Assembly: GCA_035771165.1 (NCBI GenBank)
Contig: JAWNZC010000320.1
Span: 62,001-126,000, forward strand
Source: Paragorgia papillata
Lineage: Eukaryota > Cnidaria > Anthozoa > Scleralcyonacea > Coralliidae
Reading direction: 5' to 3'
DNA: 64,000 nt
The translations under genes were made by a program, and so were the position numbers. Shown one piece after another: positions 6,965-42,773 of the stretch (position 1 is its first letter; every line of letters begins with the position of its first letter). The notes under the pieces are model-generated. The model had not been told where the DNA came from. It made no database searches and saw only the letters and a program-made list of their open reading frames with translations.

Positions 6965-7540
6965 GGTCTTGAACAGTAACTTTTTAAGCTACGTTCAAAA
7001 ACTTTTAAGCCAGAGTAGCGTTAAACTATGTCTGATTCTTCACCTGGCTGCGTTGGGAATTTATTTGTTAAATATATTTCTGTTATTAATTAGCATGACC
7101 AATGTAATGTTTAGGTACTATGACAGTTGATAAATAAATATTTTCAGGGCACTGCCCTTCAGATTTAAGGAGGGACAATACCCTGAACAATTATTATTTA
7201 TTTATTAAATGTTATAAAATCAAAAAGTTGTTGTTTGATATATGTATACCGTCAGTAGGTTACCCACAGCTATAGAACACTGAGTCAGCATTTTTCCAGG
7301 AGCTCTTACTCCTGTCAATTAGTTACCAGGGCTGTCCGCGTGAGTCCTGTGCGCGCGCATGTGAACCGGAAATACGTGTTTGAATAGAGAAACCGGTTTT
7401 TGACAAGTATGATTGTTGTCAGAGAATGGTTTAAATTAATAAGGAAGCTGTTTAATGAAACAAACGTGCAATGCTTACAGTCATTGTTTATTTAGTCAGT
7501 GTGTTTGTGAACTGGTTGAAGAAACGTGGTAAAGAGAAGC

Positions 7541-8026
7541 ATGGCACATCTGTTTGAGCAAATGTATGTTGACGAAGTTGATTTTGATGACATTCTAACT
7601 TTTGAGCAGATTATTGATCTCGTTTCTACCGAGTTTGTCCATAGACAGATTGAAGAGTTGGAGGAGCTAGTGACATGTGCCAATGAGATGGAGTTGGAGA
7701 TGGAGGAGGTGGATCGTAATCAATGGACTACCATGAGAGAGCGTTGTGAAATTTCTGATGAAGAGTATCGTTGGATGGCCTACACAGACCAAGCTATTTC
7801 AATGATTGACCGTGAAGATATTTGGAGGGCAATCGTGGAGGCCTGCAGGATTTTATCGTTTCCTAGTCCTTCCACTTTATGCAGACAATATTTTGACAGT
7901 TTATTTAATCTGAGCTGGTTTATTTGGTCTAAGATGTACGCTGAGACATCAAGAACAATGAACATTAATAACTTAATGGACTATATAATGTGTACATGCA
8001 AACTTAAGTGCCATTCAACTGTGTAA
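7541..8026 (+). CDS. Hypothetical acidic protein of the element A terminal repeat
   Basis: 161 residues from ATG 7541 (MAHLFEQMYVDEVDF) to TAA. Rich in Glu/Asp in the first 90 residues (EELEELVT, EMELEMEEVD) and likely largely helical. A WMAYTDQAISMID segment lies in the middle and a Cys-containing tail at the end. An AATAAA signal follows at about 8035. It lies about 290 bp inside A's left end. The inverted copy in the right terminal repeat (42112-42480) is frameshifted after about residue 117. No family is recognised. The reading frame is intact here, but there is no independent evidence of expression. Confidence 0.5.
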   Translation: MAHLFEQMYVDEVDFDDILTFEQIIDLVSTEFVHRQIEELEELVTCANEMELEMEEVDRNQWTTMRERCEISDEEYRWMAYTDQAISMIDREDIWRAIVEACRILSFPSPSTLCRQYFDSLFNLSWFIWSKMYAETSRTMNINNLMDYIMCTCKLKCHSTV

Positions 8027-9390
8027 TTAAAATTGTGTGAATAAAAATGTTTTTAAAAACCTAATGCATTGGCCTACTTTCTTCATGCTATACATTGTTG
8101 CTTGTGGCGACAGTGGTGTACGGTTTAGGGAAAATTTTCAAATGGGGACTTGTTACAGCAGATCACAAAGTGACAGAGCCAAGATAATGCAAAGACTTGC
8201 GAGTATTGTTTTGTTCGAAACAGAGATAAAGTCTTAAAATGCAAACTCTTAATCTTGTATAAAGTACGATGTTGAAATGTGGCTTGATTCATGTAATATT
8301 CGTAAACATATGATGAAATAAAACTTGATTCAATACTGCGACTGGTCTAATTTTTTTATATCATATTTGAACGAAGAAAGTTAATTAGTCAATATTGTGA
8401 TTTAGCAAAGTTTATATAATTAACTTCTGGCTTATTGTCTATGTGATTTTGTGAATTTTGTTAACCCACTACGCTTTGGGAAATACGCACTATTCCACCA
8501 AATGGGAAATTGGACATGATTAATGGGGAATATAAAAATATTACCTATGCTAGATAACCTAAACTGTACTTGGAATATTTGCATTGAAACAGAAAACCGA
8601 TTAAATTCTATGACTGCATCCATGTCTCATTTGTACAATCCCGAGAGAAAATAACATGTACACTTTTTGAACATTTTATTGAAATCGTTACAAGGGAATA
8701 AGTTGTATAAGCAACAAATCAATCGGTGTAAGCGGAGGAGTTGAGAAATCTGAAAGCTAGATAAAAAATGGCAATCCTTAATTGACGTAAAGTGAATAGG
8801 GGGATGATTTCGTATACCAAGCAAACACTAAAACCTTCAGTGTACTTATTTAATGTGGAAAAGGGGTACATAGACACATTTTGAGAAAGATAACACTTTC
8901 CATTCGGAATGAATTTGTAAAATGCGTTACTAACCTTAGAAGACTTTACATGTTACACGGTTTATTAGTGGGAGAAGGTCATTTGTATAAACTTGTGAAA
9001 TGTTACACCATCCTCGTAGAAAGAATTGTTATCCAACATCCAAATTGGTACAGAGAATCCATAAAAGTTGATTCATTGCAAATGCGACTAGGCAGTGCGG
9101 TGGAAGAACTGTGAAAGACGATTGACATGGCACCAAACAAAACGAATTCAGACTGACGCTAATTTGAAATGCAAAAATCTTTCGTTTGCGATAAAACAAT
9201 GCCATGGTTGATATAATGACTTTTCTTTTGTTTTTGAAAAGAATGAAGGTATTAGCAGTGTTGCGTAATTGCTTTTTTACCCTGCACGAAAATTTATAGC
9301 GAAGCTTTGGCCCTGCTTTTTTTTGTGGGAAAATATCTGTTTTGCCGATATTGAACGTACAGGAACGTTGAACGTATAGTTTTTCATTTC
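8027..9390. other. Terminal-repeat DNA without a convincing gene
   Basis: Holds only short open frames, the best being 77 codons at 8881-9114 with no initiating ATG. They recur in the right terminal repeat simply because the DNA is copied. 8190-8450 is paralogous to 12390-12720: both contain GCGAGTATTGTTTTGTTCG and end with a GATGAAATAAA polyadenylation-type sequence. This block is therefore a displaced copy of the 3' end of the 12039 gene. A block at about 9150-9290 similarly matches 13577-13710. Confidence 0.6.
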
Positions 9391-11850
9391 AACGCAACAA
9401 AGGTTAAGACGTTATCTTGTACTTATGAAGCATTTCGTTGATGGGGGTACAAAATGCAAATTCGGATCGAAGACTTTCTATTGGAAATAAACGTGGGATA
9501 ATGTCGTTTAGTGTTTTAGCATTCGCTCCTGTGTCCGTAAGACATTTCTTTGTTGACACGTTGTTTTTGCGAATTGTCCTGTCACACTGAAAAATTTTTA
9601 CATACTTGATATATTTTTTGATTGTTCATAGTTATACTGAATAAATTTCTACGTAATAAATTTCAGTGTGAAACCTCTAAACTTTGGACATGACAGTTGT
9701 TCGTTGTTTCTTGTGAATAACGAAATGTTAGTATTTTAGTTTTTTGAATTACTCACTATATGAAACTGGGAAAATATCAATAGTGCAATGTTTGCTATTG
9801 ATGACTGTACTAAATTAGCATTAGGTGTATAAGTGTAATATTTAATGACATCCCGTCTCAAAGTTGCATGAAATAAATTACTGTTTTCATTATTTACTAA
9901 AATTTTACACGGGTATATTTTGATTTCGTTTCTCGGTTGTATATACATCTTCTGAAACGATCGTATTTTATCATGTGTAACCACAAATCATATATGCTTG
10001 AATCCGCTGAGTGCTCAGTATACATGATCTAAATATTCAAACGTGAAGTGCTTAGTTATTATGATACAAGAGACTTGTACTTTCATGTTCAGTCCAAATT
10101 GTGACATTCTTTTATTCTGTTGAAATCGCAACAAAGGCTAAGACGTTATCTTGTACTTATAAAGCATTTCGTTGATGGGGGTACAAAATGCAAATTCGGA
10201 TCGAAGACCATTACCAGAAATTTGGGATATTTTGCGGCCACGTTCGTAGCCAGTAGTTACTCCCATGATAATAATATACAGTAAATATTTTGCGAAAATG
10301 CAAACGGCTGCTTAGAACAAAGATCGCCTCTGCTTTCAAAGTAAACAAGCATGGCTGCAGGCTGCTCGAAAGAGAAGAGACCTGCGTGGCTTCGTCGTTT
10401 GTCCTTCTGGCAGCTCAACTCCACGTTTAGACATAACGACCTCCTGCTGATAGACGAAATCGGAGTTTCGACTGTGCATACAATCTGAGTCGGGATAAAA
10501 CGTAGTTCGTTTATAGCACGAGGCTGAAGCAGCCGCAGTAAACATAACATTTCTGATTTCAGAAACCTTTTAATGCTTGGATATTCTATAAGGATAAAAT
10601 TTGCTTCTCAATTATCCTTGACAATAATCCTAAACGTAGTGTCTAAAAATAATGAACTCAAAACATGAAAAAATAGTCCCAGCCTATGTTATCTTCCCGT
10701 TATGCTTTAATAGACACGATGTAATTTGCACAGGGGCCCAAATTGAAAAGGAAACTAATTTGCATGTGGGCCTAAATCAAACTACGATTTGGTGTATTGC
10801 TCAAACACACTGTAAAAAAGTTTAAAGGCTTTGGGAACCGCAATGTTGTTAGATACGGAGATATTTACGAGTTATATTAGCAGTTCGAACATTGCTAAAT
10901 ACATAGCAAGCTCCGCACTTTGCATCGTTCGCAAGGAAAGTGGTTTATTTGGCAGATTTGTATCGCATGTTTAGCAGGATTAATATGGCTTACATAACAG
11001 AATGAGTCAAATAAGCAGCGTAAATAAATCGATGTTGGGAACCGTACCGAACTGTGTATTTCGGTAAGCGAACATTTTTTATTATAACGTTTCCTTACTT
11101 AACTCTTAACAGGAATCGAGCTCCGCAACCGAGAAGTCTATGTCCCTAGTAGGATAAATTTTAAAATTTACGATTTTACTGTATTATACCTTATACGATT
11201 TGGCCGTCATGTTTAATGGCCTATATGCGCCCGCGCGATGCCATCTTGTCCCAAATTTCTGGTAATGCTTTCTATTGGAAATAAACGTGGGATAATGTCG
11301 TTTAGTGTTTTAGCATTCGCTCCTGTGTCCGTAAGACATTTCTTTGTTGACACGTTGTTTTTGCGAGTTGTCCTGTCACACTGAAAACATTTTACATACT
11401 TGATATATTTTTTGATTGTTCATAGTTATACTGAATAAATTTCTACGTAATAAATTTCAGTGTGAAACCTCTAAACTTTGGACATGACAGTTGTTCGTTG
11501 TTTCTTGTGAACAACGAAATGTTAGTATTTTAGTTTCTTGAATGACTGTACTAAATTAGCATTAGGTGTACAAGTGTAATATTTAATGACATCCCGTTTC
11601 TTTAGTTGCATAAAATAAATTACTGTTTTCATTATTTACTAAAATTTTACACGGGTATATTTTGATTTCATATCTTCTGAAACGATCATATTTTATCATG
11701 TGTAACCACAAGTCATATATGCTTGAATCCGCTGAGTGCTCAGTATACATGATCTAAATATTCAAACGTGAAGTGCTTAGTTATTATGATACAAGAGACT
11801 TGTACTTTCATGTTCAGTCCAAATTGTGACATTCTTTTATTCTGTTGAAA
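9391..11850 (+). repeat. Tandem duplication inside the left terminal repeat
   Basis: A unit starting CGCAACAAAGG and ending TCTGTTGAAAT occurs at about 9391-10126 and again at 10127-11850. The second copy carries a 1.06-kb insertion and lacks about 70 bp present in the first. The right terminal repeat has one copy only, so the duplication happened in this arm after the arms were established. Short minus-strand frames here (9736-9984) start with non-ATG codons and are not credible genes. Confidence 0.85.
10209..11267. mobile_element. 1.06-kb non-autonomous DNA transposon with terminal inverted repeats
   Basis: CATTACCAGAAATTTGGGA at 10209 and its exact complement ending at 11267 bound a segment absent from both the first tandem copy (9460-9480) and the right terminal repeat (near 40545), which give two empty sites. 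The target duplication is at most 1 bp (C), so the superfamily is unclear. It contains no transposase frame; the 97-codon minus frame at 10257-10550 shows no domain. It is therefore MITE-like. Confidence 0.8.
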
Positions 11851-12038
11851 TCTGGTTTTGTCATAAGTCATGGCATAATTGTCTAACAATCCACGTAGCG
11901 GTAATAGGTTTAATGGAAATTTGTAGAAATGTTTGAGACCATTTTAAAAGAGTCAGAAAATGAAAAAAAACCCTAGTTGTTTTGTCACAAGTGATTAGAA
12001 CACAACTTCAAAGTTTTGTAAGGAGAACACTGTAAACG

Positions 12039-12455
12039 ATGGCAAGTAACATGTGTGAAGTACCTGGCGATGTTGGTGATGAAGGAAGATTTCTGAGTCA
12101 TCGACAGAAGGTGATTGAAGACAAACTATTAAATTGTTATGCCGACGAAGTTGCTTCAAACATATCAGGCTTGGTATTGAAGAATTGTAATGGCTGTCGT
12201 ATTGACCATCCTTCACAGAGGCAACACGACTGTTTAATGAAGGAATCAAACGAACGAATTTGGTTGTACTTTGACGTGGCGCTGGAAACAGTTTTTGAAG
12301 CGAAAATTGTCGAAAAGTTTATGAACTCTTTACATGACATGAAACCACAAGTTAATGGACTTGAACTGCTAAAATATACTTGCAAAGACTGGCGAGTATT
12401 GTTTTGTTCGAAACAGAGACAAAGTCTTAAAATGCGAACTCTTAATCTTGTATAA
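12039..12455 (+). CDS. HPSQ-motif Cys/His protein (element A version)
   Basis: 138 residues from ATG 12039. The central motif C50-x2-C53-x3-H57-P-S-Q-x2-H63-x-C65 is a probable zinc-binding knuckle. A second Cys pair (C115, C123) lies near the C-terminus. The first 45 residues look helical, and the SNERIWLYFDVALE segment after the knuckle matches DERIWIEFNEAMQ in the C-element protein at 31857-32357. The two are therefore homologous across elements, although this one lacks the C-terminal module of the C protein. Its 3' end and downstream polyadenylation region are duplicated at 8190-8345. I recall the HPSQ signature in other invertebrate mobile-element proteins but know no function. Confidence 0.65.
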   Translation: MASNMCEVPGDVGDEGRFLSHRQKVIEDKLLNCYADEVASNISGLVLKNCNGCRIDHPSQRQHDCLMKESNERIWLYFDVALETVFEAKIVEKFMNSLHDMKPQVNGLELLKYTCKDWRVLFCSKQRQSLKMRTLNLV

Positions 12456-12469
12456 AGTACAATGTTGAA

Positions 12470-14720
12470 ATGTGTCCTGAGCCATGTAATATTCCTAAAC
12501 ATATGATGAAATAAACAAAACCTGATTTAATATACTATGACTGGTCTAATTTTGTTAAACTATGGGGTAACCCGCTTATTGATGCGAATGTTGTTGTTTT
12601 TTCCAAGTTATATTTTGAACATTCATGTACATGTACAAATTTGAACGAAGAAAGGTAATTATAGTCAATATTGTGATTTAGCAAAGTGCATATCATTAGC
12701 TTTTGACTAATTGTTTATACATCAGACATATACATTGTCCGTCAACAATGGTTACGAGGTAGGTTTCGATCGAGGTGAGGGGATATCCGGTCAAATTGTT
12801 AGCCCTTGTTCCTAATGTCATTATGGTATTTTCCCAGTAATTACTTACCAGATGTTTGCAAAATTTTAACATTAAATCTGTTGCACTTTGAAGTGGATAT
12901 AATTTGAACCTTAAGTTAGTGTATACGTTAATGTATACAAAAGACGCCATTATATACATGTCGACTATAAGCATTATAGTATTTGTTGATGATGTTGAAA
13001 TTGTGTCTTGGTTCTCAGTAAACGTTTATCTCGCCAATATTTTTAACTGTATTCTTGAGAATAAAACTGTTTAACGTCGGTTTTATCGTTCTTAACTGCG
13101 TATACTATTGCACTGTCGTCAAATAGACAATTGGAAAAAAATATGCGACAACTTTGTTTGGAACAAAGACATATTGTCTTAAGCGTAAAACTCGGAATAT
13201 TGTATATAATATTTGTGCGTACTGTTACACTAATGCCAAGGAGACATCGTAGGAAAAAAGAGACATGTAAACTTGTATCGGTATTACAGATGTACTTAGC
13301 CTTAGGAATATGAAAGATACTGTATATTAGATTATTGAACCGACCATACACTGAACTCTCACTTATTTGAATGTAGAATTAGGTCATTCACCAACCTTTT
13401 CAGTTCCTGTCGCTTGCTTTCAGCGGAAAACAATCCTTCGAGTTAAATCGCGATGACGGAAAGCGAATTGTCTGATTCACATATTGACACAGCAAATATG
13501 TCAGGTTTCGGAGTACGGAAGATCCCTGAACAAGTTTGAAAAGTGCGCCAATATATTTGAAACAAGAAAAACGATAATTTGAAATGCAGATTTTTTTCGT
13601 TGCTAATACAAACAATGCTTGGTATTTTATATAATGACCTTTTGTTTAACGAAGATTAAGGCATTAATGTTCTTGGCTAATTGTTTTGGTAAATTGCACG
13701 AACAGTTGTTTCCTGTCTATTTTCCTATAGTCAAAATGTTAAAAACATTATCGTTTTACAACGCAAGATTATGCATGTGTGAAATATTTAACGTCTTGAA
13801 TCCTCGTCATGAATCCTCATGTACTCTGATGTGCTCGTAAGATGTTTCTTTCTTTACATTACCTTCTCGTGAATTGATATTTCCGAAGTTCAGTTTTATG
13901 ACTGTAAACACTGACCAACACTTGCATGTACATTAGTTTAATAGGACTAAGGCGGACAGTTTGATTATTTGTGTACTTAATTGGGAATAAGTGAACAGTA
14001 TACAAATGTATACACTTTATACAAAAATATGTTTCACGTTAAAAAAAATATTTCAACACATATAAACTTGTGATGAACTTAAACACTTTACGGGTGGAAA
14101 ACTTTTTCCAATACGAGAAAGTGTTTGCAATTTTTGATCGAAACAATATTTTGTTATCTTGGGTTCTTCGTTGAGCCTGTATATGTTTTTTATTTGTTAT
14201 GAAGATCCTGTTTAGTCTTCGTATGATTCTTACTATTTTGGCCCGGAGCGGTCCCGATGGTCCGGCACATCACTTCCTTACCACAGATTGTGTCGAGACA
14301 TGTTACATTTCTCCCCATGTAAACTGTGTTTCTTACGGGTATTGGTGCAAAGTTCAGGCAACAGAAACTTTAGTCTAAAAACCCGTTGTATTCAATCTGC
14401 AAGTGTTGCGGGTTAGGTTTGAACATGCTTCGGACAAGAACAGGCATGTCCACCATACGTCATACTGTACTCCGGTGAACTTGCCCATTTATTATAGAAG
14501 TGCCCTCATGTCTGACATTTATCTGTTAATTTACATTGCAAAACATACTAATCATTGTATCTATATGTTATATCATTTTGAAATAAAAAATGAACTCGCT
14601 TATGTCTCGTTCATGTGTTCTCCGTTTGTTGTAATGAGTGAATAAAACTAAAAAATCACATTGTTATGAAATTTAAACAAGGTGTACGACATGAAACGTT
14701 ATAAGCGTGTAAACATTTGA
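12470..14720. other. Element A interior without a convincing gene
   Basis: AT-rich sequence. 12470-12720 and 13577-13710 are diverged direct copies of terminal-repeat blocks near 8260-8450 and 9150-9290, so roughly 12.0-13.7 kb is an old tandem paralog of 7.5-9.3 kb. Small frames (13131-13313, 14403-14645) lack supported starts or domains and are not annotated. Confidence 0.5.
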
Positions 14721-14723
14721 AAA

Positions 14724-15262
14724 AACGGTGAGGAAAGAGTTCCCATGCATAATCAATTTCACTTCTTTAACCATTAAAAAGTTATGTGACATATTTTTTC
14801 AATGTCAAAGAAAAATCATGAAGTCAAGTGTTAACCGAGAAGGAAAAAAGACAAATGAATTTTTTTTGTACGAGTATTTCGTTGTACCCTTTTTAAATTG
14901 TTTGGTGTTTCCCTTAAGAACGGTTAGTTTTAAAATCTTGTCTTATTTAGATATATTATGCCCCGATTAGGCCCTAATTGGCCCTGTCTATACTTTTATG
15001 GCCTGAACTACATGCGAAGACAATAAAATTGTCTAAAACGGCGAGGAAAGAGTTCCCATTCATACAATTTCATTTCTTTAATCAAGTTAAAAAGTTATGT
15101 GACATTTTTTCGATAATAAAGAGAAATCATGAAGTCAAGTGTTGACCGACAAGGTAAAAGACAAATGAGGGGTTTTTTTTTGTACGAGTATTTCGTTGTA
15201 CCCTTTTTAAGTTTTGGTGGTTCTCAAAAGAACCGTTAGTTTTAAAATATTGTCTTAATTAA
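14724..15262. repeat. Two-copy direct repeat of about 230 bp
   Basis: 14724-14950 and 15037-15262 are diverged direct copies. Both carry GAGGAAAGAGTTCCCAT, a T-rich run, TACGAGTATTTCGTTGTACC and a TTAGTTTTAAAAT end. The 87 bp between them differ. No coding potential is visible. The second copy abuts the 3' end of the minus-strand nuclease-like gene. Confidence 0.8.
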
Positions 15263-15284
15263 ATGTTGGATGTCTTCGTTGTCG

Positions 15285-15803
15285 CTATAACCATCTTCCA
15301 AAAACTTCAACTTCTACTTTTGGGCAGTGAGAAAATGCGTTCACCTTGGTATGATTTCCACATGTCTCTTGCCATACTAAATCCTCCATCAACATTGTTG
15401 CTTTTGGACAGCCAAACATTTCCAAATCCAAAGACGGTATCCCAAGACGTCTCAAAACATCACGCTCCAGGTGACCACCTTTATAGGCGATTGCCGAATT
15501 TTGGCCGATCTTAATTTTGGAGTAGAACTGGACGATTATGTTCTCCAAGCAGTCGATCTTCAAAGATCTTGTTGTATTCGGAGGAACGTCTAAAGGTAAA
15601 TGGTGCACATTCTCCTGTACCCATTTACAGCTAAGCCTGTCCTTCCCCGACAAATCACTCCACGTTTTTTCAATGTCAAAGAAAAATGACAAAGCTTCGC
15701 CGTCTCCAGTTATCCAAAGACCAAGTTCTTTACAGTAGAACTTTTTACCTATGTTAAAACCATCCATGTCCATTATAGCGACAACGTTGTCTAACTTTGT
15801 CAT
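15285..15803 (-). CDS. DEDD-like (RNase H-fold) nuclease-like protein
   Basis: 172 residues from the first ATG (15803); a longer frame would need a TTG start. Acidic pair D12/D14 in IMDMDGF near the N-terminus. A middle block AYKGGHLERDVL with E113, followed by IPSLDLEMFGCPK. A C-terminal CGNH...HCPKVEVEVF segment with H151, H159, E163 and E165. This order of acidic N-terminal strand, middle Glu/Asp and late His/acidic block is what I expect of DEDD-type 3'-5' exonuclease folds. I recall this family widely in invertebrate genomes without a confirmed activity. It is transcribed toward 15285; a TATATA-like stretch lies about 45 bp upstream. The role in A is unknown: replication, repair or host-nucleic-acid processing are possible. 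Confidence 0.6.
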   Translation of the reverse strand: MTKLDNVVAIMDMDGFNIGKKFYCKELGLWITGDGEALSFFFDIEKTWSDLSGKDRLSCKWVQENVHHLPLDVPPNTTRSLKIDCLENIIVQFYSKIKIGQNSAIAYKGGHLERDVLRRLGIPSLDLEMFGCPKATMLMEDLVWQETCGNHTKVNAFSHCPKVEVEVFGRWL

Positions 15804-16083
15804 GTTTGCACTGTACAAAGTTTCGCACGAAAAAAGAAATTATGGTATATAAATATGAAGAGAGATAGAGAGAGCGTCTGAATAGAGATGTTGGGTTGCT
15901 GCAGGAACTTTTATACTGTAGTAGAAAGCATAGGAAGTGCGCATGTCAAAAAAGACAAAAGAATATTTTAAAAAATACACAGAAACTTCTAAACAAGTTA
16001 TATATCGCATGCAGAGGGCTTATACGGGGCTTATATAACAATACAAGTGCCCGTAAGTGACAGGTCGGGTCAACGTCTAAAAC

Positions 16084-16542
16084 ATGGGTCGTACACGTAG
16101 AAACTGTCCTGTTTTTGACTGTGGAAGTACTAATCTCGCTAGGTTATCAAACCATTTGGATCAAATACATGGCATGGACATAGAAGAGAGACAAAAATGG
16201 CTAAAATGGTGCAAAATGGGGCTATGTTTACCCCGACAAAGTGAAGAAAACATTACAGATGAACAGGGGGTAGATATAGAGGAAACATTGGAGAAACGTC
16301 TAAAGCACCAAGAAGAAATGGAAACAAAGTTTTATACTTATTTAAAAGAACAGAACGGGAAAATAGCAATAAGTGAACCGAGACGAACGTCTAAACGTGA
16401 GACAGGGGAAACACAGGAGTTAGATCACAAAAGTATACAGTCGACAGTTGCAAGAAGTGGTTTTGCTATTAGACACATTTTTACTAACATACTTTTTTAT
16501 TTAATGAACTTTTTATGTACACGCTTATTACAGAAAACATGA
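16084..16542 (+). CDS. C2HC/C2H2-type zinc-finger protein with hydrophobic tail
   Basis: 152 residues from ATG 16084, with a TATATAA box at about 16032-16038. The N-terminus is basic (MGRTRRN) followed by a finger C8-x4-C13...H23-x5-H29, then a WLKWCKMGL helix, a charged helix with EKRLKHQEEMETKFYTYLKEQ, and a hydrophobic C-terminus around IFTNILFYLMNFL that could span a membrane. A homologous copy in opposite orientation (18375-18755) has an in-frame stop. Similar short CxxxxC fingers are common in invertebrate element-borne genes. A DNA-binding role is inferred only from the finger. Confidence 0.6.
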   Translation: MGRTRRNCPVFDCGSTNLARLSNHLDQIHGMDIEERQKWLKWCKMGLCLPRQSEENITDEQGVDIEETLEKRLKHQEEMETKFYTYLKEQNGKIAISEPRRTSKRETGETQELDHKSIQSTVARSGFAIRHIFTNILFYLMNFLCTRLLQKT

Positions 16543-16589
16543 TAGATTATAAAAAAAAGTAACATTTTGTTGGTAATATTTTGAGAGTG

Positions 16590-16865
16590 TCAAATTGTTA
16601 AGCCTTGACTAGAGTTTGATGGCAATTCGTTATCCCATTCTATTACAAAATTAAGAATATCTTGTTCGGTCCACCCAGACATGAGTTCGAGACACAAATA
16701 TTCTTCACAGGGTTTAGGCTCCATGAGATAACAGTGAACGTTCAGCAGATCCAAGTGGCGGATGAGAGCTGCTTGCTGTTGTTCTTCGTTAAACACAAAC
16801 ATTTCTTCTAAAAATTCCAGTTCTTCTTCAGTTTTACAATCGTCAATCAGTATCTTCAGGTCCAT
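16590..16865 (-). CDS. Small acidic hypothetical protein
   Basis: 91 residues from ATG 16865 (MDLKILIDDCKTEEELEFL). Strongly acidic, predicted mostly helical, with a C-terminal SGWTEQDILNFVIEWDNELP stretch. A TATATAA sequence about 115 bp upstream on the minus strand may be its promoter. It converges tail-to-tail with the zinc-finger gene, 47 bp apart. No family recognised. Confidence 0.4.
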   Translation of the reverse strand: MDLKILIDDCKTEEELEFLEEMFVFNEEQQQAALIRHLDLLNVHCYLMEPKPCEEYLCLELMSGWTEQDILNFVIEWDNELPSNSSQGLTI

Positions 16866-17733: not shown

Positions 17734-17916
17734 ATAAGATACATCATGTAACTGTATTGATTTTAATTTAAATGTGTTTGAAATATGTTCAAATCTAAGC
17801 AACATTAAAATGACTATTTTATATTTTACACACTTTGTTTTTGCTTCTGTCTCGAATTTCATTAAAGCGCCATGGTATAGTGCGAATCGTAAAAAAAATA
17901 AAATCACCTATACAAA

Positions 17917-30457: not shown

Positions 30458-30469
30458 AATAATTCGTCG

Positions 30470-31242: not shown

Positions 31243-31254
31243 TTTGTCTTCACT

Positions 31255-32357: not shown

Positions 32358-33053
32358 ACTAATGCTATATGTGTTATAAGAACATTATCGAGTTAATCCA
32401 AAGTTAAATTATGTTTTAAGTTAAATAAAATTTCTTGGACTATTTAGTGTGTAAGAAAGATGTGTAATTTTATATATGTGAAATTTTATCTGAAGAGAAA
32501 TTAATAAAGACATATGAGCAACATTATAATAGTTCTTTGTAGTTTATTTTTATATTATAACAAATTACAGTGTACATATTGACAGCTAATTATTTACATA
32601 AACAAATGTTTTTAAATAAACTGTCCTGCGTTTACCGTTTCTTCTAGCGCACCCACTTCTTATAGATAATGTTTGTTTCTCTGTTTTGCATAATATAACT
32701 CGACAAGACCCTTTATACGAGAGTTGATAAGCGGTAACTTATACATTTAACATGTACCAAAGGAATATCAGAAAGACATACGCATTATTTGTAAATACTT
32801 TATTTAAATTCAGCATAGTACAGAAGATAATGTTTCAACGATTCAACAGCAACTTTAATTCTTATAATTGGTGTCATTCCAATACTAGGGCGTTTAGGTT
32901 GATTGTAGGAATACACTAGTTTTTTGTAATAATGGTTTCTTTCGTTTGATGAAATCTAAACATATATTCAAAATGCACAGTCCTATATAGCCTTTAATAA
33001 ACCATTATCAGTATGTCTCAATGTCGCTTTTCTCAGGTATTCAGCACTTATTC
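32358..33053. other. Non-coding spacer between convergent C genes (left arm)
   Basis: AT-rich sequence with two AATAAA-type signals (about 32425, 32505). A 70-bp block (GCGCACCCACTTCTTATAGA, TCTGTTTTGCATAATATAAC) at 32640-32705 recurs in both arms of element D. No gene. Confidence 0.55.
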
Positions 33054-33866
33054 TTATACCCTGGGTTGATATACATAATGTGTATCAGTCGGAAATATCC
33101 CGGATCTTACTCGGATTTCATCGGGACATGTCGGCGTGAGATCGACAAACAGGTAAGAATATGGCTCTTTGGTTGCCATCTGGTAGGCTTGCTGGAAAAA
33201 CTTTGTGTTGTCGGGATACAACTGTTTGGCAAGATGAGTCACTTGACTTGCATCACGAACATTTTTTGTTAGGACAAAGTAACTAGCGTTGAGAGAGATG
33301 GTACGATGGTCTTTGCTTTGATGAAACAAATTTTGCACAATATAAATCACGCTGAGATTACCATGATGGGATTTCTTCGTGAACAGTTTGGCAATAATCG
33401 TATCTTTTTCACCCATCATATCATCAATGATAAATAGATTTCTTATTTGGGGATTAATACTATCCAATATAGATTCGGATAAACCTTGCACAAACTGAAT
33501 CCCAGGAATAAGAAGTTCCATTTTAGCAAACGTGTCTTGGTACTCAGAATAAAAATAAATTATATTTTCTGGGACAGGGTCGATCATGATTTGGGCGTTG
33601 GCTAATAATTCCTTGACAAAGGTTGTCTTCCCAGTCTTGGTCCCTCCAGAGACCAAGAGTCCAAAGGGATGTGTTAATTGTATGGAGTATGTCTTTTTGT
33701 TGTCTTGGTAATTCGATGCGTTTCCATCAAATGGAGAATACTTAAATGTAGAATCAGTAGACATCGTTTGTATTGGCCGATCTCCCCCATGCAGGACCTT
33801 TACGTGACGTTGTAAATTTAACTGTCTTGAAAAGCTCTTTCCGCAAATATTACCAGCGCTAGGCAT
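33054..33866 (-). CDS. A32-type packaging ATPase of C (left-arm copy, zinc-finger Cys lost)
   Basis: 270 residues from ATG 33866. Walker A GGTKTGKT (74-81), Walker B LFIIDD (144-149), SHHGNLSVIYIVQN (167-180) and a final YLFVDLTPT block. The N-terminal finger should be C5-x2-C8-x12-H21-x4-H26, but here residue 5 is Gly (MPSAGNICG), so the finger is probably non-functional in this copy while the ATPase core is intact. It lies head-to-head with the right copy across the central minisatellite, each transcribed outward. Confidence 0.8.
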   Translation of the reverse strand: MPSAGNICGKSFSRQLNLQRHVKVLHGGDRPIQTMSTDSTFKYSPFDGNASNYQDNKKTYSIQLTHPFGLLVSGGTKTGKTTFVKELLANAQIMIDPVPENIIYFYSEYQDTFAKMELLIPGIQFVQGLSESILDSINPQIRNLFIIDDMMGEKDTIIAKLFTKKSHHGNLSVIYIVQNLFHQSKDHRTISLNASYFVLTKNVRDASQVTHLAKQLYPDNTKFFQQAYQMATKEPYSYLFVDLTPTCPDEIRVRSGIFPTDTHYVYQPRV

Positions 33867-34029
33867 GTTCACACAACAACTCTCAAACTACTTGTGAAAA
33901 TTTATGTGAGAAAAGTAAGATTATATCCTTGGGTTTCTTCTCTAATGCATGTGGGGATACCAAAACGAACCAAGGCGCATGCATAGCTGGACGTCACTTG
34001 GACGTTACGTAGACGCCGCCTCCAAGGGA

Positions 34030-34412
34030 TTAACTCATGAGTAACTCGTGAGTAAATGAGTAACTCGTGAGTAAATGAGTAACTCATGAGTTACTCATGA
34101 GTAACTCGTGAGTAAATGAGTAACTCATGAGTTACTCATGAGTAAATGAGTAACTCGTGAGTAAATGAGTAACTCATGAGTTACTCATGAGTAACTCATG
34201 AGTAAATGAGTTACTCATGAGTAACTCATCACGAGTTACTCATTTACTCATGAGTCATGAGTTACTCATGAGTAACTCATGAGTTACTTATTTACTCACG
34301 AGTTGCTCATTTACTCATGAGTAACTCGCGAGTTACTCACGAGTTACTCATGAGTAACTCATGAGTTACTCATTTACTCACGAGTTACTCATTTACTCAC
34401 GAGTTACTCATG
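34030..34412. repeat. Self-complementary minisatellite at the centre of C
   Basis: About 380 bp made of ACTCATGAGT, AACTCGTGAG and TAAATGAG words. ACTCATGAGT is its own complement, so the tract can fold at many registers and forms the axis of the 9.8-kb palindrome (about 34224). Confidence 0.92.
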
Positions 34413-34581
34413 AGTTAATCCCTTGGAGGCGGCGTCTACGTAACGTCCAAGTGACGTCCAGCTATGCATGCGCCTTGGTTCGTTTTGGTATCCCCACATG
34501 CATTAGAGAAGAAACCCAAGGATATAATCTTACTTTTCTCACATAAATTTTCACAAGTAGTTTGAGAGTTGTTGTGTGAAC

Positions 34582-35394
34582 ATGCCTAGCGCTTGTAATA
34601 TTTGCGGAAAGAGCTTTTCAAGACAGTTAAATTTACAACGTCACGTAAAGGTCCTGCATGGGGGAGATCGGCCAATACAAACGATGTCTACTGATTCTAC
34701 ATTTAAGTATTCTCCATTTGATGGAAACGCATCGAATTACCAAGACAACAAAAAGACATACTCCATACAATTAACACATCCCTTTGGACTCTTGGTCTCT
34801 GGAGGGACCAAGACTGGGAAGACAACCTTTGTCAAGGAATTATTAGCCAACGCCCAAATCATGATCGACCCTGTCCCAGAAAATATAATTTATTTTTATT
34901 CTGAGTACCAAGACACGTTTGCTAAAATGGAACTTCTTATTCCTGGGATTCAGTTTGTGCAAGGTTTATCCGAATCTATATTGGATAGTATTAATCCCCA
35001 AATAAGAAATCTATTTATCATTGATGATATGATGGGTGAAAAAGATACGATTATTGCCAAACTGTTCACGAAGAAATCCCATCATGGTAATCTCAGCGTG
35101 ATTTATATTGTGCAAAATTTGTTTCATCAAAGCAAAGACCATCGTACCATCTCTCTCAACGCTAGTTACTTTGTCCTAACAAAAAATGTTCGTGATGCAA
35201 GTCAAGTGACTCATCTTGCCAAACAGTTGTATCCCGACAACACAAAGTTTTTCCAGCAAGCCTACCAGATGGCAACCAAAGAGCCATATTCTTACCTGTT
35301 TGTCGATCTCACGCCGACATGTCCCGATGAAATCCGAGTAAGATCCGGGATATTTCCGACTGATACACATTATGTATATCAACCCAGGGTATAA
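34582..35394 (+). CDS. A32-type packaging ATPase of C (right-arm copy, finger intact)
   Basis: 270 residues from ATG 34582, with TATAAT 57 bp upstream. C2H2 finger complete (C5, C8, H21, H26), then linker, Walker A GGTKTGKT (74-81), DPVPENIIYFYSEYQ, Walker B LFIIDD (144-149), SHHGNLSVIYIVQN and YSYLFVDLTPT. Compared with the B ATPase it lacks the 200-residue Gln/Pro-rich extension and is clearly diverged, so B and C stem from different parent elements. Role: motor for loading DNA into capsids (family knowledge); no capsid gene is in the window. Confidence 0.83.
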   Translation: MPSACNICGKSFSRQLNLQRHVKVLHGGDRPIQTMSTDSTFKYSPFDGNASNYQDNKKTYSIQLTHPFGLLVSGGTKTGKTTFVKELLANAQIMIDPVPENIIYFYSEYQDTFAKMELLIPGIQFVQGLSESILDSINPQIRNLFIIDDMMGEKDTIIAKLFTKKSHHGNLSVIYIVQNLFHQSKDHRTISLNASYFVLTKNVRDASQVTHLAKQLYPDNTKFFQQAYQMATKEPYSYLFVDLTPTCPDEIRVRSGIFPTDTHYVYQPRV

Positions 35395-36090
35395 GAATAA
35401 GTGCTGAATACCTGAGAAAAGCGACATTGAGACATACTGATAATGGTTTATTAAAGGCTATATAGGACTGTGCATTTTGAATATATGTTTAGATTTCATC
35501 AAACGAAAGAAACCATTATTACAAAAAACTAGTGTATTCCTACAATCAACCTAAACGCCCTAGTATTGGAATGACACCAATTATAAGAATTAAAGTTGCT
35601 GTTGAATCGTTGAAACATTATCTTCTGTACTATGCTGAATTTAAATAAAGTATTTACAAATAATGCGTATGTCTTTCTGATATTCCTTTGGTACATGTTA
35701 AATGTATAAGTTACCGCTTATCAACTCTCGTATAAAGGGTCTTGTCGAGTTATATTATGCAAAACAGAGAAACAAACATTATCTATAAGAAGTGGGTGCG
35801 CTAGAAGAAACGGTAAACGCAGGACAGTTTATTTAAAAACATTTGTTTATGTAAATAATTAGCTGTCAATATGTACACTGTAATTTGTTATAATATAAAA
35901 ATAAACTACAAAGAACTATTATAATGTTGCTCATATGTCTTTATTAATTTCTCTTCAGATAAAATTTCACATATATAAAATTACACATCTTTCTTACACA
36001 CTAAATAGTCCAAGAAATTTTATTTAACTTAAAACATAATTTAACTTTGGATTAACTCGATAATGTTCTTATAACACATATAGCATTAGT

Positions 36091-36591
36091 TCACATATAG
36101 TTCAGATTGCTTTTCGTCGTTAAGTTTCTAGACTTTTCAAGAAGATACTCCTCGTAAGCCTCCCAAGGATTCTTTATCGTACTCGTAAATTTTACACCAG
36201 TGTCTTTTACTTGGTACAGATACTTTAATGGACAGCTAAACAGAACAGATATAGAAAGAATATTTGGCGAGTCGTCAATTTCCACCGGCACAACCACTGT
36301 CTCTGTAGCGTCTTGAGAGTGTTTATTATTGTCTCTTTGGTTTCGTAATTTCAACGCCTGCATCGCTTCGTTGAACTCTATCCAGATACGTTCGTCGACG
36401 TTTGTCCTGGTCTCTTCGTAGCACGATCTCCATTGCTCATCATCTGTTAGGAAACTGTGTTGTTTCTGACTAGGATGGTTAGTCCTACAACCGTAGCATT
36501 TTTCATGACAAAGCTTCGAATATTCTTCCCACAAAGTTTCATTGTAAATAGCTTCGAACATTGAAAACAATTTTTCATATAAACCCTCCAT
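36091..36591 (-). CDS. HPSQ-motif protein (right-arm copy, motif Cys lost)
   Basis: 166 residues from ATG 36591. Same as 31857-32357 except for at least L20W, C47F, Y91H and R143W. C47F removes the last Cys of the knuckle (HPSQKQHSF), and R143W alters the shared C-terminal module. The frame is open, but the protein is probably impaired. It converges on the right-arm ATPase gene. Confidence 0.62.
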   Translation of the reverse strand: MEGLYEKLFSMFEAIYNETLWEEYSKLCHEKCYGCRTNHPSQKQHSFLTDDEQWRSCYEETRTNVDERIWIEFNEAMQALKLRNQRDNNKHSQDATETVVVPVEIDDSPNILSISVLFSCPLKYLYQVKDTGVKFTSTIKNPWEAYEEYLLEKSRNLTTKSNLNYM

Positions 36592-37016
36592 CTCTGCGGT
36601 CTTACTCCAACAGCAAATAGCAAGCAAATGATACGCCGAGAAAACCGACGCCGTGAATAAGCATATTAATTAGGATTTCTTTGTCTAAGCTCTGACGTCG
36701 CCCAAACTCGCGCAGACACGTTCTTTTGTTTAAATTGCTAATGAGTCATTAACACCAATAGTGTACATGGACTTAAACATTACACTCAGCCATTCTATAG
36801 ACAAATAATATTTCGTCTGTACCTTACGCTCTTACAGTTTCTCGATTCAATTCCTCATACTCGCGACTTCTCGATTGACTTTACGAGTACGGCAAACCGT
36901 TCCGTGTTTACACAACGATTTTGAACTTTCGAAGACATCTCCTCAATCTAAGTATTAATAATCAATGGTTACTGCTTGTTGTCAACAAAGGTTTAGTTGT
37001 TGCGGTGTTTTTCTTC

Positions 37017-37193
37017 ATGATGAGTGAAGAAGAAAATAAAGAATGGAGACGAGCGATAAACCTTCGACTTTACCTACGGGATCATCAGCTTATAGAAAAC
37101 CGCAGGGACGAAGATTTAAACACACAATTACTTCGAGCATATACACTCTTAAAACTAAAGAAAAGAAAGACACTACAGAAAATGGTCATATAA
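37017..37193 (+). CDS. Small charged ORF of C (right arm)
   Basis: Inverted copy of the 58-residue frame at 31255-31431, starting MMSEEENKEW; identical in the called part. Unknown function. Confidence 0.3.
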   Translation: MMSEEENKEWRRAINLRLYLRDHQLIENRRDEDLNTQLLRAYTLLKLKKRKTLQKMVI

Positions 37194-37205
37194 AGTGAAG
37201 ACAAA

Positions 37206-37427
37206 GTGATAGAGCCTTGGTGTCTGAATGAAAAGCAGACATTTGAAAAACGGTGCTCTTATCGTAACGATAAAATATCATATTGGTTAACAATTTATGC
37301 TAATATGCAACTGGAGAAAAGAAGGAAAAGAAGAGAATCTACGCTAGTACGATTTCCCGAGGCTTATATCCAGTGGATATTCGAACAGTCAAAGGATATG
37401 TTATACGAAGAGACTAAGCAGTTTTAG
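37206..37427 (+). CDS. Small basic ORF of C (right arm)
   Basis: Inverted copy of 31021-31242, with one difference (G to E in QTFxKRCSY). No initiating ATG at its start. Possible 3' part of the preceding small gene. Confidence 0.25.
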   Translation: MIEPWCLNEKQTFEKRCSYRNDKISYWLTIYANMQLEKRRKRRESTLVRFPEAYIQWIFEQSKDMLYEETKQF

Positions 37428-37548
37428 ATATGTTAATCATTTAATCGAAACAGAAACATTAGTGCTTATACAAACTTTTGAAAGAAAGTGTTTCAATATC
37501 TTTCGAACAGCTTACCGAACGGTTTCTTCATTGAAGGCATCATTTACT

Positions 37549-37761
37549 CTATCCAGCTAAGGTTAAGGGGAAGCTAGAATCATTTACACACTCTTCGCTT
37601 GCCAAACTAACAACAGGACTGTCTCCAACAGGTTGATTAACTGTGTTTTCTTCAAATACGATAACACTTTCGACTATGCTTTGATTTTTTGGACCAAGAA
37701 ATAAATATTTTAAACTGAATACTTTGAATTCTGCCTTATGAGACGACGCGACGCTGTACAT
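37549..37761 (-). CDS. Weak 70-residue ORF of C (right arm)
   Basis: Inverted copy of 30687-30899 with one substitution (V to I). No domain, and its frame is disrupted in the related fragment at 49062-49340. Confidence 0.18.
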   Translation of the reverse strand: MYSVASSHKAEFKVFSLKYLFLGPKNQSIVESVIVFEENTVNQPVGDSPVVSLASEECVNDSSFPLTLAG

Positions 37762-38300
37762 TCTCCATGGTAACGCCCCCGCTAATCATATTTTGGCCTG
37801 AACATGCCCACACATTAATACCCCTTGTTATCCACACACAACTCATGACATCCCCTAAAATGAATTAAATATTCTACTTATATGCAAATCTGGTTATGTT
37901 TTGGGCATTAGTAACTTTAATGACTTTTCCCTTTTGTGTTCTGCACGTGCGAAAATCTTATAACATACTAAATCATAGCGACGAATTATTTAACCTAGCA
38001 ACGCTTTCAAAGTAATAAATCGCTTTGCCTTTAGTTCTTATTTCGACACTTAAAATCGTTCTTTTCACGACTTCTCGAAGTGATTCCTCATTCTATCTTC
38101 CTACAATTTCCTCGCTCATGAACTAGGGTTTACCTCCGAACAAAAAATGGAACGTATTGCTCAACAACTATTAGCCTTATATAAGACAAAACACAACATT
38201 TATAACCAAAGTTGGAGATAAATGAATCACGAAAAAAAAAGAAGTCAGGTATAAACATATATTTATTAGATAGATAATTAGAATACAAAATTATACATGT

Positions 38301-38933
38301 TCAGCAAATGTTCAGTTTTTCCAAGTCTATAGTCAAGTCATTTACCGACTTTTGAAAAAGGTACTCTTCGTATGCTTTCTTATGATCAGTTTCATGGCTC
38401 GTGAATGTCTCTCCAGTCTTTTTGACTGTATATCTGTAAGATGGTGGCATACTAAACAGAACAGTGGAAAATGGTTCAAGGGGATCTTCTTCCGGTTTCC
38501 ATTCGAAAAAGTCACAGCAGTTTTCTCTCTCGTGGGGACACAAGTAAAATAATCGACCTTGATTAGGACCTTCTTTCTTGACTTTGCTAGTACGACAAAT
38601 CAGACCATGTCGACATATTGGTTTGATACCCTCGAAGACATCAGCCCATTGCCAAAACGAACAGGGATTTCCTCGTGCGGAGCAAACAAAGTATGGTCTC
38701 CCGTAACTTTCCTTCATCTTATCTTTAACCATTCGCATCTGTGCTAGTCGTCCATGGCCATGGCACCTTGGATGTATACATTCACTTTCATGGAAGGAGG
38801 CTACGGCTTTTCCAAACATGTAGCAATCTTCTTCTGGGCAAAAGAACTCACAACTAGGTTTCTGTACACAGAACCAAAAGGTGCCATTCCTTGTTGTTGA
38901 GACAGACGCAGATTCACCATGTAGACATTCCAT
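38301..38933 (-). CDS. Triple GRF zinc-finger protein (right-arm copy)
   Basis: 210 residues from ATG 38933. Differs from the left copy at G23V (just after the second metal-ligand Cys of finger 1) and L133P (inside finger 3, FYLCPHE). All metal-ligand Cys/His residues are retained. TATAAA lies about 58 bp upstream on the minus strand. Same three-finger plus C-terminal-module architecture as 27484-28116. Confidence 0.73.
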   Translation of the reverse strand: MECLHGESASVSTTRNGTFWFCVQKPSCEFFCPEEDCYMFGKAVASFHESECIHPRCHGHGRLAQMRMVKDKMKESYGRPYFVCSARGNPCSFWQWADVFEGIKPICRHGLICRTSKVKKEGPNQGRLFYLCPHERENCCDFFEWKPEEDPLEPFSTVLFSMPPSYRYTVKKTGETFTSHETDHKKAYEEYLFQKSVNDLTIDLEKLNIC

Positions 38934-39125
38934 TGTAACGATGTTGTACTTAACCAGAGCCACGAGTGAAGCAACTGAAGTAACCCTGGGTTTATATCAC
39001 CCACTCTATGTGTGCTAATTACTTCCGGGCGTCACACCGTGCGTCACACCGTGCATCACACCGAATATTTAATGAGGCGGCATCCCTTTGGGAGGTGGAT
39101 GGGGGGGGGGTTACCTACTCACAAC

Positions 39126-39836: not shown

Positions 39837-42767
39837 ATTACCGCTACGTAGATTGTTAGACAATTATGCCATGACTTATGATAAAACCAGATTTCAACAG
39901 AATAAAAGAATGTCACAATTTGGACTGAACATGAAAGTACAAGTCTCTTGTATCATAATAACTAAGCACTTCACGTTTGAATATTTAGATCATGTATACT
40001 GAGCACTCAGCGGATTCAAGCATATATGATTTGTGGTTACACATGATAAAATACGATCGTTTCAGAAGATGTATATACAACCGAGAAACGAAATCAAAAT
40101 ATACCCGTGTAAAATTTTAGTAAATAATGAAAACAGTAATTTATTTCATGCAACTTTGAGACGGGATGTCATTAAATATTACACTTATACACCTAATGCT
40201 AATTTAGTACAGTCATCAATAGCAAACATTGCACTATTGATATTTTCCCAGTTTCATATAGTGAGTAATTCAAAAAACTAAAATACTAACATTTCGTTAT
40301 TCACAAGAAACAACGAAAAACTGTCATGTCCAAAGTTTAGAGGTTTCACACTGAAATTTATTACGTAGAAATTTATTCAGTATAACTATGAACAATCAAA
40401 AAATATATCAAGTATGTAAAAATTTTTCAGTGTGACAGGACAATTCGCAAAAACAACGTGTCAACAAAGAAATGTCTTACGGACACAGGAGCGAATGCTA
40501 AAACACTAAACGACATTATCCCACGTTTATTTCCAATAGAAAGTCTTCGATCCGAATTTGCATTTTGTACCCCCATCAACGAAATGCTTCATAAGTACAA
40601 GATAACGTCTTAGCCTTTGTTGCGTTGAAATGAAAAACTATACGTTCAACGTTCCTGTACGTTCAATATCGGCAAAACAGATATTTTCCCACAAAAAAAA
40701 GCAGGGCCAAAGCTTCGCTATAAATTTTCGTGCATGGTAAAAAAGCAATTACGCAACACTGGTAATACCTTCATTCTTTTAAAAAACAAAAGAAAAGTCA
40801 ATATATCAACCATGGCATTGTTTTATCGCAAACGAAAGACTTTTGCATTTCAAATTAGCGTCAGTCTGAATTCGCTTTTGTTTGGCGCCATGTCAATCGT
40901 CTTTCACAGTTCTTCCACAGCACTGCCTAGTCGCATTTGCAATGAATCAACTTTTATGGATTCTCTGTACCAATTTGGATGTTGGATAACAATTCTTTCT
41001 ACGAGGATGGTGTAACATTTCACAAGTTTATACAAATGACCTTCTCCCACTAATAAACCGTGTAACATGTAAAGTCTTCTAAGGTTAGTAACGCATTTTA
41101 CAAATTCATTCCGAATGGAAAGTGTTATCTTTCTCAAAATGTGTCTATGTACCCCTTTTCCACATCAAATAAGTACACTGAAGGTATTAGTGTTTGCTTG
41201 GTATACGAAATCATCCCCCTATTCACTTTACGTCAATTAAGGATTATCACTTTTTATCTAGCTATCAGATTTTTCAAGTCCTCCGCTTACACCGATTGAT
41301 TTGTTGCTTATACAACTTATTCCCTTGTAACGATTTCAATAAAATGTTCAAAAAGTGTACGTGTTATTTTCTCTCGGGATTGTACGAATGAGACATGGAT
41401 GCAGTCATAGAATTTAATCGGTTTTCAGTTTCAATGCAAATATTCCAAGTACAGTTTAGGTTATCTAGTATAAGTAATATTTTTATATTCCCCATTAATC
41501 ATGTCCAATTTCCCCCTTGGTGGAATAGTGCGTATTTCCCAAAGCGTAGTGGGTTAACAATGTTAACAAAATCACATAGACAATAAGCCAGAAGTTAATG
41601 ATATGAACTTTGCCAAATCACAACATTGACTAATTAACTTTCTTCGTTCAAATATGATATAAAAAAAATTTAGACCAGTCGCAGTATTGAATCAAGTTTT
41701 ATTTCATCATATGTTTACGAATATTACATGAATCAAGCCACATTTCAGCATCGTACTTTATACAAGATTAAGAGTTTGCATTTTAAGACTTTGTCTCTGT
41801 TTCGAACAAAACAATACTCGCAAGTCTTTGCATTATCTTGGCTCTGTCATTTTGTGATCTGCTATAACAAGTCCCCATTTGAAAATTTTCCCTAAACCGT
41901 ACACCACTGTCGCCACAAGCAACAATGTATAGTATGAAGAAAGTAGACCAATGCATTAGATTTTTAAAAACTTTTTTATTCACACAATTTTAATTACACA
42001 GTTGAATGGCACTTAAGTTTGCATGTACACATTATATAGTCCATTAAGTTATTAATGTTCATCGTTCTTGAGGTCTCAGCGTACATCTTAGACCAAATAA
42101 ACTAGCTCAGATTAAATAAACCTGTCAAAATATTGTCTGCATAAAGTGGAAGGACTAGGAAACGATAAAATCGTGCAGGCCTCCACGATTGCCCTCCAAA
42201 TATCTTCACGGTCAATCATTGAAATAGCTTGGTCTGTGTAGGCCATCCAACGATACTCTTCATCAGAAATTTCACAGGGCTCTCTCATGGTAGTCCATTG
42301 ATTACCATCCACCTCCTCCATCTCCAACTCCATCTCCTTGGCAAATGTCACTAGCTCCTCCAACTCTTCAATCTGTCTATGGACAAACTCGGTATAAACG
42401 AGATCAATAATCTGCTCAAAAGTTAGAATTTCCTCAAAATCAACTTCGTCTACATACATTTGCTCAAACAGATGTGCCATGCTTCTCTTTACCACGTTTC
42501 TTCAACCAGTTCACAAACACACTGACTAAATAAACAGTGACCGTAAGCATTGCACGTTTGTTTCATTAAACAGCTTCTTTATTAATTTAAACCATTGTCT
42601 GACAAGAATCATACTTGTCAAAAACCGGTTTCTCTATTCAAACACGTATTTCCGGTTCACATGCGCGCGCACAGGACTCACTCGGACAGCCCTGGTAACT
42701 AATTGACAGGGGTAAGAGCTCCTGGAAAAATGCTGACTCAGTGTTCTATAGCTGTGGGTAACCTACT
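39837..42767 (-). repeat. Element A right inverted terminal repeat
   Basis: Complement of the left repeat without the tandem duplication or the 1.06-kb insertion, so it preserves the simpler ancestral state. It contains the frameshifted copy of the 7541 gene. The small frame at 40033-40281 and others correspond to those in the left repeat and start with non-ATG codons. Confidence 0.9.
42112..42480 (-). pseudogene. Frameshifted copy of the element A terminal-repeat gene
   Basis: Starts at ATG 42480 (MAHLFEQMYVDEVDF) and follows the 7541-8026 protein for about 117 residues with about eight substitutions. An extra G in the GACAG/GTTTATT region shifts the frame and the protein ends at RFI. A TAG also replaces the Trp codon of the original frame downstream. 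The left copy therefore is the only full-length one. Confidence 0.7.
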
Positions 42768-42773
42768 ACCGTC

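Follow-up and report, generated by a model that had tools for sequence, protein, structure and literature searches.

Polintons (Mavericks), snapback genomes, and satellites that hijack the packaging of a helper virus are each already known. Here we describe palindromic elements that bear a likeness to all of them, found in a 64,000-nt stretch of the Paragorgia papillata contig JAWNZC010000320.1 (the window; coordinates count from its first letter) and at further sites of the same genome. Vertebrate Mavericks possess AGT-type ends and perfect 6-bp target site duplications (TSDs), as described in PMC8097293. The palindromes likewise show AGT-type ends, 6-bp TSDs, and an FtsK-type packaging ATPase, and complete Polintons with these ends occur alongside them in the genome; in contrast to Polintons, they lack recognizable genes for PolB, integrase, protease, and capsid proteins, and their ATPase is fused to a C2H2 zinc finger. 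Together with their relatives, two elements of the window (B and C) are probably (at roughly 65%) satellites of Polintons that are replicated and integrated in trans and use their own ATPase for packaging.

The snapback (defective interfering) genomes of adeno-associated virus (AAV) are self-complementary in a symmetric or asymmetric manner, and their 3′ kind contains a central promoter (PMC8235507). The palindromes are also self-complementary, head-to-head, symmetric or asymmetric, and carry one genome end at both sides, but one and the same junction is found in copies integrated at several sites, and they encode a protein under selection. Among phage satellites, the S. aureus pathogenicity islands (SaPIs) encode their own packaging-specificity protein, the small terminase TerS (PMC6092414). 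Like SaPIs and the phage-inducible chromosomal islands (PICIs), the palindromes are small, have a packaging protein of their own, and would employ a helper virion; unlike them, they reside in a eukaryotic host, have a Polinton as the presumed helper and a zinc-finger motor instead of a small terminase, and consist of palindromic DNA. Virophages and the satellite phages Mulch and Flayer obtain functions they lack from a helper (PMC10690885), as the palindromes, judged by their genes, would do as well; as far as that account goes, the former possess their own capsid or encapsidation machinery, whereas the palindromes have no recognizable capsid gene. The Tlr elements of Tetrahymena, as portrayed in PMC4642659, are Polinton-like and have a packaging ATPase and no PolB, but they retain an integrase and capsid proteins. 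In open-access papers (Repbase was not covered), we found no spreading palindromic Polinton satellite with a zinc-finger packaging motor and no paper on a "non-autonomous" or "nonautonomous" Polinton or Maverick, in line with an earlier reading of the window (the original prediction) that knew no described family of this architecture.

Four elements with shared ends in the window

The original prediction placed four elements, A–D, between matching AGTRGRT/AYCYACT ends with perfect 6-bp duplications outside them, and all four coordinate pairs proved exact.

7254–42767, unstranded: A, TSD ACCGTC, an older element with long terminal inverted repeats (TIRs), 17.4 kb without the nested B and C
20936–27180, unstranded: B, TSD GCGGTG, a 6.2-kb asymmetric palindrome inserted in A
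27296–39119, unstranded: C, TSD CACAAC, a symmetric palindrome centered at ∼34224, inserted in A
43802–47201, unstranded: D, TSD CGCATG, an older decayed palindrome with a CTC-tract loop

The window contains AGTRGRT 15 times and AYCYACT 12 times. A perfect 6-bp duplication is found in 4 of the 85 possible pairs, namely A, B, C, and D, against a chance expectation of 0.009 on average and 1 at most (right flank displaced, 107 displacements). All four had been described as giant head-to-head palindromes. This holds for B, C, and D and fails for A, which is a long-TIR element inflated by B and C; its repeats of only ∼2.88 kb around a larger unique interior rule out a palindrome.

The arms of B (20936–23664 and 24446–27180) make up 87% of the element, with 2.73 kb each around a 0.78-kb loop. 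Those of C comprise essentially the whole element once a 2,031-bp insert of the left arm is removed, which leaves 9.8 kb, and those of D account for about 74%, with the CTC tract at 45276–45684 as the loop. Mismatches between the arms amount to 59/2874 in A (2.05%), 7/2728 in B (0.26%), 16/4699 in C (0.34%), and 52/1256 in D (4.1%). If the arms were symmetric at insertion, the lower divergence makes B and C younger than A, which fits the predicted nesting of both inside A. Subterminal repeats of the GTGTGACGCACG type are common to B, C, and D and missing from A, whose outer sequence agrees with B and C over the first ∼12 bases only, with one mismatch. An Rfam scan of the window gave no matches.

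Palindromes, full Polintons, and the C2H2-fused packaging ATPase

The search for shared termini in the host assembly (617.9 Mb, 473 contigs) returned 86 exact matches to the B/C end AGTAGGTAACCCCCCCC (43 + 43), with none for the reversed control. End pairs were chosen by eye, which gave 23 convergent pairs (46 of the 86 ends; 40 remained unpaired): two of them lie in the window, 20 were analyzed further, and the 34-kb C435 was left out. Further full-length copies, as anticipated, are present, with a perfect 6-bp TSD in 18 of the 20. Mirror symmetry is 0.84–1.00 in nine of these elements (C22, C190, C232, C234, C259, C280a, C280b, C350, and C418) and 0.01–0.03 in six (C82, C87, C206, C311, C344, and C376), which are short-TIR Polintons of 12–14 kb. 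The other five belong to neither group: C405 (0.59), C324 (0.31), C473 (0.19), C213 (0.11), and C347 (0.02), the last being a chimera of B-class and C190-class arms.

Gene content was compared by means of Polinton queries from the same genome (PolB, integrase (INT), major capsid protein (MCP), penton-like, protease, PX, and ATPase; E up to 1e-5). All six short-TIR elements match PolB (89–100% of the query), integrase, MCP, protease, PX, and ATPase, with several gene matches split into pieces; C206 matches half of the penton-like query only and none of a 54-aa query. Pfam, applied to pieces of two of the six, identified DNA_pol_B_2 in both and, in the one examined for it, rve with a chromodomain. 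This genome thus harbors full Polintons that carry these ends and 6-bp duplications, which bears out the predicted Polinton kinship and provides six candidate helpers with PolB, integrase, and common termini. In all nine palindromes, the ATPase is the sole match, PolB, integrase, MCP, protease, and PX not being found with these queries; the window likewise yields no match to PolB, integrase, MCP, penton-like, protease, or PX. Of the five elements that fit neither group, C324 covers 81% of the PolB query and shows no match to integrase, capsid, or protease; C473 covers 29% of the integrase query; and C213, C405, and C473 cover 27% of the PX query.

Of the features of an autonomous Polinton, the palindromes therefore show the 6-bp TSD and the AG(T) ends and lack PolB, RVE integrase, capsid, and protease. 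Ends in common with full Polintons of the same genome are those of a nonautonomous Polinton derivative, and the lack of spread genes that a co-resident helper possesses is that of a virus satellite. The original prediction of packaging-related genes without recognizable polymerase or integrase stands for B and C; to this the genome adds an ATPase of a distinct kind, fused to a zinc finger and subject to purifying selection. The genes of B are arranged as follows.

20936–23664, minus strand: left arm of B, with copies of the 224-aa and 105-aa open reading frames (ORFs) and a truncated 3′ part of the ATPase gene
23665–24445, plus strand: unique loop of B, starting in a GGA tract and containing the 5′ part of the ATPase gene
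23811–25157, plus strand: ATPase of B (448 aa), a C2H2 zinc finger, a Pox_A32-like packaging ATPase, and a PX-like tail
25443–25760, plus strand: 105-aa ORF of B (inverted copy 22353–22670), homolog of a small ORF adjoining the ATPase in Polintons
25806–26480, plus strand: 224-aa ORF of B (inverted copy 21632–22306), homolog of part of an annelid-Polinton PX-like protein

The 105-aa ORF matches the tail of P0059 (E 6e-22) and L002 (E 1.6e-5). The 224-aa ORF matches the 273-aa PX-like protein of L001 (L001_273, E 2.5e-7), although the same-genome PX query finds nothing in the window. L001 is a Polinton located in a contig assigned to a symbiont metagenome-assembled genome (record: Escarpia laminata tubeworm endosymbiont) and probably represents host contamination; there, the counterparts of the two ORFs are the small ORF and the PX-like protein adjoining the ATPase. 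The features of C are the following.

28426–30456, unstranded: 2,031-bp insert acquired later by the left arm of C; the right arm represents the empty site
33054–33866, minus strand: C2H2-ATPase of C, left copy, 270 aa
34582–35394, plus strand: C2H2-ATPase of C, right copy, 270 aa
34028–34420, unstranded: palindrome center of C, an array of ACTCATGAGT-like units whose flank is common to C190, C232, C324, and C347
31857–32357, plus strand: 166-aa ORF of C (inverted copy 36091–36591)
27484–28116, plus strand: 210-aa GRF zinc-finger protein of C (inverted copy 38301–38933; Pfam 6e-20)

The GRF protein is 87–97% identical to a terminal gene in five of the six Polintons and 66% in the sixth. A six-frame Pfam search on parts of C found neither PolB nor integrase. 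The insert encodes a DUF3504/tyrosine-recombinase ORF (28856–29998, minus strand) and is Crypton-like, with no clear target duplication at 28426–30456.

Palindrome centers recur between sites. The central junction of B (23630–23700) is shared without change by C22 and C259 (71 bp) and by C350 (68 bp), and these four sites exhibit four different TSDs and different flanks. Palindromes hence spread as palindromes. The 161-bp flank of the C center is found on both sides of the center in C190 and C232 (95–96% identity) and on one side in C324 (99%, 134 bp).

In the ATPase of B, Pfam recognizes Pox_A32 (5.8e-7) and zf-C2H2 (5.4e-5). The ATPase domain of C is 90% identical to a same-genome Polinton ATPase; its AlphaFold model has a mean predicted local distance difference test score (pLDDT) of 75, with the finger region below 50, and resembles RecA/HerA/FtsK-type ATPases in a Foldseek comparison to the PDB (E 2e-4 to 3e-6, TM-scores <0.5 among the matches listed). 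A PDB sequence search with the ATPases gave, among the matches listed, nearly all zinc-finger proteins. The finger is matched in 12 of the 14 non-Polinton elements, the matches in C232 and C280b being partial and the frame being interrupted in some, for example C259 and C350. The ATPase of the six Polintons is fused to a C2H2 finger in none: the match begins with the ATPase domain itself, and in all six the reading frame is closed by a stop 14 codons ahead of the start methionine, with no finger in frame.

In a phylogenetic tree, B-type ATPases cluster, separately from those of the six Polintons, with C2H2-fused proteins of other sources (support 1.00), and the five C-type ATPases make up a clade (0.99) that falls within the local Polinton ATPases (0.78 and 0.85), which indicates that the fusion is carried by two separate ATPase lineages. 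Identity of B-type ATPases to the C344 query is 42–46%, and 59% in C350, where a short piece matches. Full-length outside homologs of the B type reach 57–64% identity at full coverage, and those of corals 46% over 80%. Judged by such sequences, which include one from Oculina patagonica, the C2H2-ATPase gene is widespread. Two of them, P0131 and P0137, are 97% identical, and the longest contig is 101,892 in each one's public assembly; this pair is possibly a palindrome in another species. Scans of IMG/VR with the C ATPase, the B ATPase, the GRF protein, two ATPase alignments, and one end pattern gave no confirmed relative. An origin of the C2H2-ATPase by a deletion that fused it to the N terminus of PolB is ruled out by the many full-length C2H2-ATPase homologs, and the weak similarity of the finger to PolB N termini is what the C2H2 consensus yields.

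Between palindromic elements, strong purifying selection acts on the ATPase domain, with dN/dS of 0.04–0.07 (C and C190: dS 0.22, dN 0.015, p = 5e-13; B and C280a: dS 0.66, dN 0.032, p = 3e-31; B and C234: dS 0.96, dN 0.043). The domain is a gene region of the elements' own under selection, as expected for a satellite, with the reservation that the gene is mosaic: between B and C280a, the tail shows a dS of 0.05 versus 0.66 in the ATPase. The B-type finger changes ∼5 to 37 times faster in protein sequence than the ATPase domain (dN 0.19–0.45, six pairs) and is still constrained (p = 0.0001–0.018), with the Cys/His ligands kept in 8/8 B-type sequences listed.

Element A and the neighboring sequence

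Without B and C, A measures 17,433 bp, one third of it in terminal repeats; with them, it measures 35.5 kb.

7254–10127, plus strand: left TIR of A, ∼2.88 kb, holding a 161-aa ORF at 7541–8026
39890–42767, minus strand: right TIR of A, inverted partner of 7254–10127
12039–12455, plus strand: 138-aa ORF of A, related to the 166-aa ORF of C (32% identity in 65 aa, E 9e-9)

The same-genome Polinton queries matched no Polinton core genes in A and D, and six-frame Pfam searches of A (10128–19702) and of the left half of D gave nothing. A 172-aa ORF of A (15285–15803) contains an MDMDGF motif, and C190, C232, and C234 each repeat its C-terminal part close to both of their ends; the ORF had no Pfam match and no match in a PDB sequence search.

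Relics of related sequence lie beside D (47291–49446), of which 49062–49334 is 95% identical to a piece of a C arm. A 20-bp satellite flanks the element cluster on both sides (5196–6094 and 52442–60826), a 38-bp satellite (5–5197) flips its orientation near 4.86 kb, and 61629–63652 contains reverse transcriptase/RNase H ORFs of a long terminal repeat-type retroelement.

Probable satellites of Polintons and the alternatives

In the satellite reading, a resident Polinton would supply the polymerase, for protein-primed replication from the common ends, as well as the integrase and the virion. A palindrome would originate if, during replication, a strand snapped back onto its own sequence at a repeat tract (GGA in B, CTC in D, the ACTCATGAGT array in C), resulting in two identical ends, and replication from either end would then maintain it. 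The C2H2-ATPase would replace the helper motor or compete with it and thereby bring satellite DNA into helper capsids. This packaging into Polinton capsids, directed by the satellite motor and proposed by analogy with SaPI TerS, is the least certain part.

Several observations weigh against this reading. Helper dependence and selective packaging are what we infer, the former from the absence of genes. Two of the 20 elements, C347 and C376, are without a perfect 6-bp TSD, and five of the 20 are neither clean palindromes nor Polintons. Identical 40-bp flanks, reversed in C280a, surround C280a, C280b, and C418, which implies either one insertion that was later copied or insertions into one repeat; the three may therefore count as a single insertion. 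The whole B-type protein shows a dN/dS of 0.14–0.44 (pairs with >5 differences), above the value of the domain. The C-type finger and linker of C and C190 exhibit 0 synonymous and 3 nonsynonymous differences in 59 codons and hence no evidence of purifying selection over this stretch. Zero synonymous change there versus a dS of 0.22 in the ATPase indicates a recent exchange of that gene end; the neighboring palindrome center of C was perhaps exchanged likewise, which would make the common center a weaker proof of descent. In the Polintons, a separate small ORF just upstream of the ATPase, in another frame, carries a finger-like CPICGK...H motif; what sets the satellites apart is therefore the fusion and not the presence of a finger next to the motor. 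Finally, the genome contains at least 95 B-type ATPase matches, nine of them in elements already analyzed, and beyond those elements five sites were examined, within 2.3 kb each. Two of these (L067 and L068) show the gene arrangement of B, L069 a diverged one, and L070 resembles C405. At the fifth (L071, G000:C72), PolB, 81% identical to that of the Polintons, adjoins the B-type ATPase, and PolB also adjoins the C2H2-ATPase in C324. A fuller Polinton ancestor with a C2H2-ATPase may accordingly exist or have existed, and C324 and L071 possibly form a PolB-bearing intermediate class.

The alternative that survives best, though we regard it as rather unlikely, is that the palindromes are snap-back by-products, i.e. 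defective genomes that formed repeatedly during Polinton replication, were integrated by chance, and have no life of their own. The occurrence of symmetric (C and C234) beside asymmetric (B and D) palindromes does parallel the AAV snapback genomes of PMC8235507, the centers of B, C, and D sit at repeat tracts, and the C-type ATPase is nested within those of the local Polintons. However, such by-products would each form anew and have no independent lineage, whereas one B junction recurs at four sites with different TSDs. Purifying selection between palindromic elements also speaks against them, as does a B-type ATPase that is remote from the Polinton one and, unlike in all six Polintons, fused to C2H2.

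The proximity of PolB to the C2H2-ATPase at L071 (B-type) and in C324, together with C2H2-ATPases in other organisms such as O. patagonica, could instead point to a second, unseen Polinton lineage with a C2H2-ATPase, of which the palindromes would be ordinary nonautonomous elements whose ATPase has no special satellite role. This appears unlikely: none of the six Polintons with these ends has a C2H2-ATPase, C324 lacks integrase, capsid, and protease matches, and the loss of core genes with retention of the ATPase recurs in the B class, the C class, and C234. It is very unlikely that the palindromes are kept because hairpin transcripts feed small-RNA silencing of Polintons, as a defense of host or element; head-to-head inverted copies would yield double-stranded RNA, and the same proposal exists for AAV 5′-snapback genomes (PMC8235507), but the selection observed acts on the protein sequence of the ATPase domain. 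An assembly or fold-back read artifact, of which perfect palindromes are a familiar long-read form, is practically negligible given perfect 6-bp TSDs outside both ends, arms that differ by 0.26–4.1%, an insert in one C arm alone, and the same structure at many sites.

Within the satellite reading, we tentatively suggest that these elements are a first class of satellites that hijack the packaging of a eukaryotic DNA virus, a class with palindromic genomes and with a motor bearing a fast-changing finger as the main retained tool, which may have evolved at least twice (an old B type and a C type from local Polintons), the finger re-addressing helper capsids to satellite DNA.

Polinton particles are deduced from genes. 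Viral particles of Mavericks have not been observed, according to PMC8097293. If true, a satellite lineage with a selected packaging motor would provide independent genetic evidence for the formation and transmission of Polinton virions, because packaging is of consequence only where particles exist. It also opens to testing how linear genomes with protein-primed replication become stable palindromes, and whether packaging pirates of the phage kind occur among eukaryotic viruses.

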